From a virus: a DNA stretch of 43,059 nucleotides. The position numbers and the translations under genes were made by a program. Shown piece after piece: positions 715-3,062 of this stretch; positions within the stretch are counted from its first letter, which is position 1, and each line of letters opens with the position of its first letter. The stretch spans positions 1 through 43,059 of IMG/VR virus record IMGVR_UViG_3300032116_000430; one strand, given 5' to 3'. Under the pieces are notes generated by a model that searched no databases, was not told the origin of the DNA, and saw only the letters and a list, made by a program, of their open reading frames with translations.

Positions 715-731
715 CTTAACAGTTAGTAACA
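715..731. repeat. boundary element copy 1 (stop-codon 17-mer)
   Basis: CTTAACAGTTAGTAACA, read on the minus strand, supplies the helicase stop codon. It matches three copies in the right arm (41160, 41499, 42369) at 15 or more of 17 positions. All four span the end of a minus-strand gene. Confidence 0.7.
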
Positions 732-3062
732 TTGGCCTGATGGCACCTCTCCGCAATGACCGTACGGCAGGCCAAGGCAGCGCTCGACACGCCGCCGTTG
801 CTCGCCCGTAAGCCCCTCGGGACTATTGGCGAATGGCCATAGGATCGCAGGATTAAAATGCTTCGCTTCAACAAGGTACAGATTCTTCTTTGCGGCTTTA
901 ACGCGCTTCTGTATTCTTTGCTCATATAAATCTTCGATTGATAATTCCCTCATTTCCTTTCGATCGCCTTGGGCCACTAAAGCGCGTTCCGGTTTCTCTG
1001 GCTTCTCGACCACTTCCTTGTCTACATTAAGATGCAGTCTAGCCTTCTTAAACTTAACTTTGCCTTCTAGTGTCCAATCAATCGGCTCGTGCGGCAATGG
1101 CAGATTGCGCCAGCAGTTGCCATGATCAATGATCAGCGCCACCTTGTCTGGATTGGATGGATCAGTGCGCAATACCCTACCGATAAGTTGCTTCCAGAGG
1201 CGCAAAGATCGCGTTGGCCTGATAAGCTGCAGGCATGTTGCTGCCGGCAGGTCTAGCCCTTCATCGATCAATGCAACGGAAACGATAACTTTCAGATCGC
1301 CGGCAGTAAAGCGCTCAAACGCATAATCTCGATCCCGGTCTGATGTCGTGCCGATAACAACTTCAGCGCTGATGCCATGTGCCTTGTATTCCTCCGCAAT
1401 CCTGTTTGCGTGTTCAACGCTAATCGTTACCGTAATGGTAGGATGTAGTTTTGGATTGAAATGCAGTAAGTCACGCAGAAAGTCACCCTGTACCTTCACG
1501 ATGCGTTCTTCGATTTCTTCTTTTTTGTAATCTCCGCCGCGTGTTGCGACGCCTTCAGTATCAACTACTGCATCATCGCCACCAAACATCTTATACTTGC
1601 ACAATGAACCATCATCCATCAGTTGTTTAGGCTGCGGACCAAGGATTAGTTTCGTGATGCCAAACTTCCCAAGGCCAGCACCAGTCGGTGTGATTGGCGT
1701 TGCGCTAGCGCCGGCAAAGAATGCAGGCTGCATTGCAACAATGATTTCCTGATATGTTCTCGCTTGAATATGATGACAGTTATGAACAAGAACACCGTTG
1801 GCGAAATAACAGTGATCCTGCTCTACCTCTAAATTGTAGACAAAACCATCCGGACACAGCTCATGGGATCTTCTATCACTTGTTCGTTCGAGAATCTCAA
1901 TACTTTCCAGCCAAGTGACTGCAGAAAAGCTGTTTTCTTTTTGTCTTGCTCCTGTCGCTCTGTCGCGCAATGCGAGCGGCCATCTATCTCTACGGCAATC
2001 TTGAGGTTCGTATGGCCAACGTCTATTTTGTAGTGAGTCGGGTACTTCGCTCCCGGCAATGGAGCACAGCCAGTTTTGACAATAACCTGCATTTCCCAGC
2101 CCAATAATTGAGCCATCAACGCTTCCGCCGCTGTCGCCGGCCTGCCATTCCCGCCGCGAATGCGCGGCTGATGGCCAATCTCTTTCAAGCGTTGTGATAC
2201 CTTTTGCCTGACTTCTTCTCGTTTCATTGGATTGCAGGCAGTCATTCTGGCGGAAGCGTGCTTGCGGTTGGTTGCCGCCATCGTAATAGAGCTGTTCCAT
2301 GCTCGGTAACGAGAGGAGCATTCTTTGCTGCAATAAGCCCATCCCCTCTTCCGTGCCTGCTCCCTGCATCCCTTGGTGTCTTGGGCCGGCGCTCCGCACA
2401 TGGCGCAAAAGCTGAGAAAAGGCATCGGTCGTGGGTGTGGCGGTCAGTTGCATCATAGCCATGCCTGGTTCAAGAGCGATGGCTGGGCGCCAGTCGTCAT
2501 CGGCCCAGACCGGATGGCCGGCGGTGCAGGTGATCTCGGTTCCTGCGGTCGTGCGAAGTCGCACCATGAGCGGTGGCGCTGGATTGCGATGCAAGCCTGT
2601 CACCTTGCGCTTTTGCAGTCGCCGGCCATCCCATGCGGTCACGCAATCGCCAACACAAACATCCTCGATAGGGCGCCCATCTACAAGAGTCCCCGCAGGG
2701 AAGCATTCATCCAATAGTAGCACCCTACCACGAAACGTGGATACCGCTTCCCGTCTACGCGCAAGTGTTGGCATCATCGTAACCATGATGCCACGATCTT
2801 CCGTCATACGTTTAGCAGTATAAAATCCTACCGGCTCATTACAGTGCTTGCGGCATGATGCAGCGAGCTGCTTAATAATTTCGTTGCGATGCGCGGCAAG
2901 GATAACTTGATACCCCCATTCACGATAGAGCCTTGTGATCTCTGCTAGTATCACAGTTTTGCCGCTGCCAGTGGGCGACACCAGGCACGGTGCGCCCCCT
3001 TCGTTCATGTGCTCAACAGTTGCGCACACTAAAGGGGGCTGGTAGTCTCTAAGGGTGAACAT
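723..3062 (-). CDS. superfamily 2 DNA helicase interrupted by an intein
   Basis: This 779-residue product should splice to a helicase of about 470 residues. Walker A is PTGSGKT at residues 30-36. Walker B is split: LLLDE ends at residue 119 and CHH resumes at 429, rebuilding DECH after removal of residues 120-428. Motif III follows (GASATP), and motif VI is QLIGRVLR. The fold resembles UvsW/RecG-like phage helicases that remodel forks and D-loops, fitting the nearby recombination genes. The start overlaps the stop of the preceding small gene (TAATG), suggesting translational coupling. A host-type repair helicase is possible, but its phage setting favours a replication/recombination role. The intein and its hidden endonuclease are described separately. 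Confidence 0.93.
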   Translation of the reverse strand: MFTLRDYQPPLVCATVEHMNEGGAPCLVSPTGSGKTVILAEITRLYREWGYQVILAAHRNEIIKQLAASCRKHCNEPVGFYTAKRMTEDRGIMVTMMPTLARRREAVSTFRGRVLLLDECFPAGTLVDGRPIEDVCVGDCVTAWDGRRLQKRKVTGLHRNPAPPLMVRLRTTAGTEITCTAGHPVWADDDWRPAIALEPGMAMMQLTATPTTDAFSQLLRHVRSAGPRHQGMQGAGTEEGMGLLQQRMLLSLPSMEQLYYDGGNQPQARFRQNDCLQSNETRRSQAKGITTLERDWPSAAHSRREWQAGDSGGSVDGSIIGLGNAGYCQNWLCSIAGSEVPDSLQNRRWPYEPQDCRRDRWPLALRDRATGARQKENSFSAVTWLESIEILERTSDRRSHELCPDGFVYNLEVEQDHCYFANGVLVHNCHHIQARTYQEIIVAMQPAFFAGASATPITPTGAGLGKFGITKLILGPQPKQLMDDGSLCKYKMFGGDDAVVDTEGVATRGGDYKKEEIEERIVKVQGDFLRDLLHFNPKLHPTITVTISVEHANRIAEEYKAHGISAEVVIGTTSDRDRDYAFERFTAGDLKVIVSVALIDEGLDLPAATCLQLIRPTRSLRLWKQLIGRVLRTDPSNPDKVALIIDHGNCWRNLPLPHEPIDWTLEGKVKFKKARLHLNVDKEVVEKPEKPERALVAQGDRKEMRELSIEDLYEQRIQKRVKAAKKNLYLVEAKHFNPAILWPFANSPEGLTGEQRRRVERCLGLPYGHCGEVPSGQCY
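1779..2705 (-). other. intein (309 residues) in the helicase Walker B motif
   Basis: The splicing signals are all present. Block A begins with Cys1 (CFPAGTLVDG). Block B contains TAGHPVW with its TxxH core. Block F reads VYNLEVEQDHCYFANG. Block G ends LVHN, followed by the +1 Cys at 1776..1778. Insertion falls inside DE/CH, the ATPase active site, so the helicase is dead until splicing occurs. Unusually, the middle of this frame (about intein residues 95-260) is Arg/Gln/Ser-rich and resembles no LAGLIDADG or in-frame HNH domain. That stretch is instead an endonuclease gene read in the +1 frame. The segment near WLESIEILE may already belong to the C-terminal splicing half. Confidence 0.93.
1829..2425 (-). 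CDS. Zn-ribbon / Vsr-like (EDxHD-type) homing endonuclease nested inside the intein, +1 frame
   Basis: A 198-residue protein begins at ATG 2425 and ends with TAG at 1829..1831, entirely inside the intein but one base out of its frame. Residues 7-36 form a Zn ribbon (CAMC ... CSKEC). Residues 65-90 look like a NUMOD-type DNA-binding helix (NPMKREEVRQKVSQ). Residues 91-182 carry a Vsr/PD-(D/E)XK-like nuclease core: RGGNG, YPTHYKIDVG, KIAVEIDGRSH, QDKKK and LGWKVLRF. Candidate catalytic residues are D135, E146, D148 and H152. This matches EDxHD homing endonucleases known from phage split-intein loci. No Shine-Dalgarno is seen; the leader is C/A-rich like those of many genes here. In-frame stops just upstream fix the start. 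It would cut intein-less helicase alleles and spread the element. Confidence 0.85.
   Translation of the reverse strand: MPFLSFCAMCGAPAQDTKGCREQARKRGWAYCSKECSSRYRAWNSSITMAATNRKHASARMTACNPMKREEVRQKVSQRLKEIGHQPRIRGGNGRPATAAEALMAQLLGWEMQVIVKTGCAPLPGAKYPTHYKIDVGHTNLKIAVEIDGRSHCATERQEQDKKKTAFLQSLGWKVLRFSNEQVIEDPMSCVRMVLSTI

Follow-up and report, generated by a model that had tools for sequence, protein, structure and literature searches.

Can one stretch of viral DNA encode the end of an endonuclease in one reading frame and the C-terminal half of an intein in another, with both products under selection? The question is raised by a complete virus record of 43,059 bases (IMGVR_UViG_3300032116_000430), hereafter the window. 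A sequence-only reading had proposed that positions 1829-1930 are dual-coding over the last 100 bases of a nested gene. The two overlapping readings are real: the minus strand reads FSAVTWLESIEILERTSDRRSHELCPDGFVYNLEVEQDHCYFANGVLVHNC in the intein frame (1928-1776) and AFLQSLGWKVLRFSNEQVIEDPMSCVRMVLSTI followed by a stop in the nested frame (1930-1829), and both frames are open. The overlap is not 100 bases, however, but the whole 597-nt nested ORF, and amino-acid constraint in both frames is confined to about 1919-1834. The features of the locus are as follows.

723-3062, minus strand: host gene, an SF2 helicase ORF of 779 aa interrupted by the intein (ResIII 1.6e-16, Helicase_C 4.1e-12)
3062-2706, minus strand: N-extein of the helicase
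1779-2705, minus strand: predicted 309-aa intein, flanked by GAA (DE of motif II) and TGT (+1 Cys), with C1, a TxxH block B and the HN/C end
2435-2705, minus strand: N-terminal splicing half, residues 1-90, single-frame coding, diverging fastest at intein codon position 3
1829-2425, minus strand: nested ORF of a predicted endonuclease, 198 aa, +1 frame, with a treble-clef-like Cys cluster, a basic region and a Vsr-fold nuclease (PF04480 DUF559, 6.4e-13)
2423-2425, minus strand: predicted ATG start of the nested ORF, with no other candidate from the upstream stop to the first Cys, and without a Shine-Dalgarno site
1779-1931, minus strand: C-terminal splicing half, residues 259-309, blocks F and G, holding the dual-coding segment
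1886-1919, minus strand: dual-coding core, the GWKVLRFSN strand of the nuclease and the WLESIEILE strand of the intein
1832-1888, minus strand: dual-coding tail, the nuclease C-terminal helices and the intein linker and start of block F (DGFVYN), both frames conserved beyond the null
1829-1831, minus strand: TAG stop of the nested ORF, within the Leu-Glu codons of the intein
1778-723, minus strand: C-extein of the helicase

The intein and the nuclease nested within it

The host ORF matches the phrog_16 DNA helicase (8.7e-64) and is 55-89% identical to intein-free homologues (L003-L016). The insert splits it after the DE of motif II, and Cys-His-His resumes on the far side (DE/C...HN/CHH, with slashes at the two borders). 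Twelve of the intein-free homologues (L003-L014) span the insertion point with both flanks, and in 10 of these the aligned stretch is free of gaps; these empty sites show the precise insertion of an intein. Two of them (L003 and L006) are intein-free yet have the +1 Cys that splicing requires (DECH), which may mark past intein loss or co-conversion.

The insert matches intein models TIGR01443 (2e-7) and PF14890 (6.3e-6) and carries the block A Cys1, the block B TxxH and the block G His-Asn followed by Cys. C1, T61, H64 and N309 are invariant in 55 intein members, H308 is present in at least 90%, and C+1 follows the intein at nearly all loci. An AlphaFold (AF2) model built from the alignment of these 55 inteins has a pLDDT of about 97 over residues 1-90, about 50 over 95-258 and 80-97 over 261-309, with a strand at residues 261-273 (window 1925-1887). 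In Foldseek it matches Mtu RecA and other inteins and has the Hint fold, and the in-frame middle is of low confidence or disordered. The low-confidence stretch agrees with the earlier guess that residues 95-260 are dispensable, the model being of the full intein. These sequence marks and the modeled fold identify the insert as an intein, which presumably splices.

The nuclease model has a mean pLDDT of 91.6, with a strand at residues 174-179 (within 1912-1886) and C-terminal helices reaching residue 197. In Foldseek it comes closest to 3hrl and to the I-Bth0305I catalytic domain (3r3p), both at moderate E values (4e-3 to 7e-3). The protein also matches MTES_1575 REase, and the DUF559 match was found in all 60 relatives scanned. 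None of D135, E146, D148, H152 and D161 varies among 60 aligned members, and the enzyme combines a Vsr-like fold with the E, D, H and D residues of the EDxHD family motif. In profile comparison the match is 2.4e-10 for 3hrl and only 0.06 for 3r3p, where the D148 and H152 columns pair with other residues; the E.D...H...D pattern and the GW.VLRF-type strand are clear against 3hrl and weaker against 3r3p. The Vsr-like fold is shared with both I-Bth0305I and the DUF559 proteins, but I-Bth0305I is a mobile-intron protein according to the PDB, whereas the nested enzyme sits in an intein, has a Cys cluster and a basic region, and overlaps the intein with its C-terminus. From these residues and the predicted fold, the nested ORF is probably a homing endonuclease that would cleave DNA.

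This arrangement is more general than the sequence-only reading supposed. Relatives occur in GenBank phages, including Vibrio phages CP-T1, K391 and 159E43, Pseudomonas phage MR14 and Corynebacterium phage phi673, and others were drawn from IMG/VR and GTDB genomes. Profile scans requiring both intein halves in one frame gave 103 loci, each of which has the nuclease in the +1 frame and an intein frame free of stops. Searches with the intein N-half and C-half, in which the presence of a nuclease was not demanded, gave 100 distinct full-length cases with the same +1 phase and no exception; the two sets have many contigs in common and their counts are not additive. Insertion is nearly always at DE/C of helicase motif II, a bias that may stem partly from the queries, and two loci (L117 and L121) have it a few residues along in SNF2-type helicases.

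Selection in two reading frames

In these loci an intein-frame stop arises wherever a nuclease-frame codon ending in T precedes AA, AG or GA. Across 90 loci the stop-making third base is used at 0 of 3,811 places whose amino acid would have allowed a final T, where 1,094 would be expected from the same amino acids elsewhere, and ordinary bacterial DUF559 genes use it at 76 of 481. The third frame of the loci has a median of 14 stops. Chance as the source of the open frame is rejected by the contrast of 0 with 1,094, and the intein frame is held open by selection.

To separate openness from conservation of the encoded protein, we used a codon-shuffle test on 73 non-redundant loci, in which one protein is fixed, its synonymous codons are shuffled and the other frame is scored; the test takes sequences as independent, and its controls are clean. 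With the nuclease protein fixed, the intein frame is at shuffle level over 173 columns of the nuclease body (mean z 0.47) and is strongly conserved from about 1919 onward (mean z 8.6 over the 11 core columns and 11.0 over the block F part). With the intein protein fixed, the nuclease frame is above the null throughout, to about 1838 (mean z 20.9 in the core and 9.9 in the block F part). The control was a phantom +1 frame placed on the singly coded N-domain of the intein, where the mean z was 0.16. Phylogenetic inertia as a source of the two-frame conservation is rejected by this value and by that of the nuclease body.

Divergence per frame across relatives, a comparison that had been proposed for this segment, also reveals constraint on both proteins [19 pairs; intein codon positions 1/2/3: N-domain 0.201/0.157/0.372, nuclease body 0.388/0.214/0.170, core 0.199/0.047/0.035, tail 0.128/0.120/0.150]. 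The value of 0.388 in the nuclease body falls on the nuclease third position, and the tail has no fast codon position. In the core and tail, nuclease third positions are slower (Fisher 5e-35), as are intein third positions relative to the N-domain (Fisher 1e-35), although these P values ignore dependence between sites and pairs, and a few of the 19 pairs share a cluster. Together with the shuffle tests, these values support the suspected selection in two frames at once: about 85 nt, at roughly 1919-1834, are under selection in both frames. Stops or free variation in the intein frame, which would have spoken against this, are not seen just upstream of VYNLEV; only upstream of about 1919 does the intein frame vary as freely as the nuclease code permits, and there it need only stay open.

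Both AlphaFold models have a beta-strand over the same stretch of about 27 nt. As these are the strands at 261-273 of the intein and 174-179 of the nuclease, the same nucleotides would encode a strand in both proteins.

Proposed expression of the nuclease and competing explanations

We consider it highly probable that the element is a splicing intein and that it is mobilized by a homing endonuclease which is encoded out of frame, has a translation start of its own and is joined at its 3' end to the C-half of the intein. Translation in the helicase frame would yield the helicase with its intein, which would fold from residues 1-90 and about 259-309, leaving the middle 165 or so residues as a disordered read-through loop, and would splice itself out of motif II. 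Internal initiation in vivo at the nested start of the same mRNA would yield the Cys-cluster/DUF559 endonuclease, which would cut the intein-free helicase gene at the DE/xH codons and so lead to copying of the element. The last 85 or so nucleotides of the nuclease gene would also encode the C-terminal intein strand and the start of block F. Sharing this segment would fix both frames in one phase, and the nuclease tail could hardly be lost with splicing left intact.

Separate initiation is suggested by the sequences around the nested starts. A Shine-Dalgarno-like site (-6 kcal/mol or better) precedes the candidate start in 64% of the 73 loci versus 21% in the matched null, in which 0 of 2,000 runs reach 64%. 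The best start lies no more than 3 codons past the upstream stop in 22 of the 73 loci, and immediately after an in-frame stop in 7. The nested start of the window has no such site, nor do most sampled genes of this phage, several of whose gene starts are preceded by an ACCA..AGCC-like string instead. The enrichment and the starts beside stops favor internal initiation over frameshifting. Programmed +1 frameshifting, which would produce a fusion of N-extein, intein-N and nuclease without internal initiation, would agree with the constant +1 offset and with the lengthy open region that precedes the first Cys in some members; we regard it as improbable, since starts so close behind a stop leave little or no room to shift and ribosome-binding sites are enriched at them.

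The idea that a phage insert kept in frame can conceal a nuclease in another frame was established with the ShiLan element (PMC11855218). That element has no splicing domain, its nuclease is of the HNH type, its peptide is thought to remain in the host protein, and neither a ribosome-binding site nor a dual-constrained segment was reported (PMC11855218). The window element shares with it the logic of a nuclease ORF in a second frame of an insert whose host frame remains open, as well as a homing-like distribution and a related free-standing nuclease beside an uninvaded target gene. It is nevertheless very unlikely that the window holds such a non-spliced peptide insert, because the splicing domain is complete and conserved, the nuclease belongs to DUF559 rather than HNH, and an insert that breaks helicase motif II should kill the enzyme if it were retained.

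Still less probable is a dead relic, with the nested ORF open by shared ancestry or composition. Truncated members do exist, and the nested ORF is annotated in none of the 10 GenBank phage stretches viewed, in which the helicase is annotated. Against this, the nuclease protein is better conserved (43% mean identity) than the intein N-domain (37%) or the host (26%), its active-site residues are invariant, and the nuclease-frame third positions are the fastest over the nuclease body. A group I intron or another RNA-spliced element is hardly credible here even though introns often bear nucleases in other frames, as every member has an open host frame, the full set of intein blocks is present along with the fold, and an Rfam search of the window gave no match to an intron RNA structure (group I or II).

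Natural deletions, probable mobility and relation to known elements

Ten inteins lack all or part of the nuclease body (L121, L169, L184, L198, L205, L216, L252, L254, L268 and L284). In all ten the intein frame is open and the nuclease tail is still in the +1 frame, and the C-terminal splicing half is kept. The 142-aa intein of L198, for instance, retains the out-of-frame tail WWKVLRFKNKQVAEHLEECVQTVLSTISK, and a 135-aa relative (L202) has no trace of the nuclease. The tail was presumably retained because it is the intein C-half, although recent loss could also help explain its presence. In L121 and L205, inteins of about 200 aa in SNF2-type helicases (DEAH/C or DEGH/C), the nested nuclease is internally deleted and both frames are open across the deletion junction.

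Three related nucleases are free-standing (L073, L089 and L096), two of them directly adjoining an intein-free helicase. In a tree, from which L073 and L096 were left out for having too few aligned columns, the nested nucleases fall into a single group that is separate from bacterial DUF559 proteins (100/98) and includes the free-standing nuclease of L089. Mantel tests did not reveal a tighter association of intein and nuclease with each other than with the host (0.40 vs 0.52 and 0.49). The distribution of the element is probably a product of homing. The intein-free helicase of L089, directly downstream of the free-standing nuclease (L089:2544-3188), has a single additional base at precisely the point of insertion in motif II (L089:3490-3520; GATGAAcggaCACCAC), perhaps a scar of repair or else a sequencing error. 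In L096 (2592-4860) the free-standing nuclease overlaps a DEAH helicase, intact and intein-free, at the start of the latter, which resembles collaborative homing.

Inteins are usually described as single polypeptides, and in canonical class 1 inteins a LAGLIDADG or HNH endonuclease domain lies in frame as part of the intein protein. The window intein resembles these in its Hint domain with blocks A, B, F and G, in having the nuclease coded between B and F, and in its insertion at a conserved host motif. It is unlike them in that the nuclease is never in the intein frame but always a separate +1 product, and in that the in-frame middle is predicted to be disordered. We lean towards the view that these inteins, driven by a Vsr-like endonuclease in another frame, are an ancient class of mobile element that apparently arose once. 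The shared segment of about 85 nt would supply both the final strand and C-terminal helix of the nuclease and a strand and block F of the splicing domain; the two genes would be held in one phase, and mini-inteins would keep out-of-frame fossils. In the literature searched we found no description of such a class, the ShiLan paper being the sole close match. Related arrangements may be described in an actinobacteriophage non-canonical intein preprint (bioRxiv 10.1101/2025.01.02.630785) and in Gorbalenya 1998 (Non-canonical inteins), both cited for overlapping phage frames in PMC11855218.

The family is large, is found in many phages and several bacterial phyla, and divides splicing and nuclease between overlapping genes. 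Annotation misses the nested nuclease, and intein surveys restricted to an in-frame search would label such inteins endonuclease-free. The family is also a deep natural alignment for the study of dual-frame constraint, with recognizable folds for both products, and a clear case of one DNA stretch building two proteins that are folded by prediction. It suggests a route by which a selfish nuclease may resist deletion, its tail being part of the splicing machinery.

As for the phage itself, the portal proteins nearest to its own are those of cyanophages S-2L, KBS-S-2A and S-H1. Bases 1-239 of the window hold an array of GGC/GTC-type repeats in units of 9-27 bases, which encode an Ala/Asp-rich C-terminal stretch of an ORF cut off at base 1 by the edge of the record.
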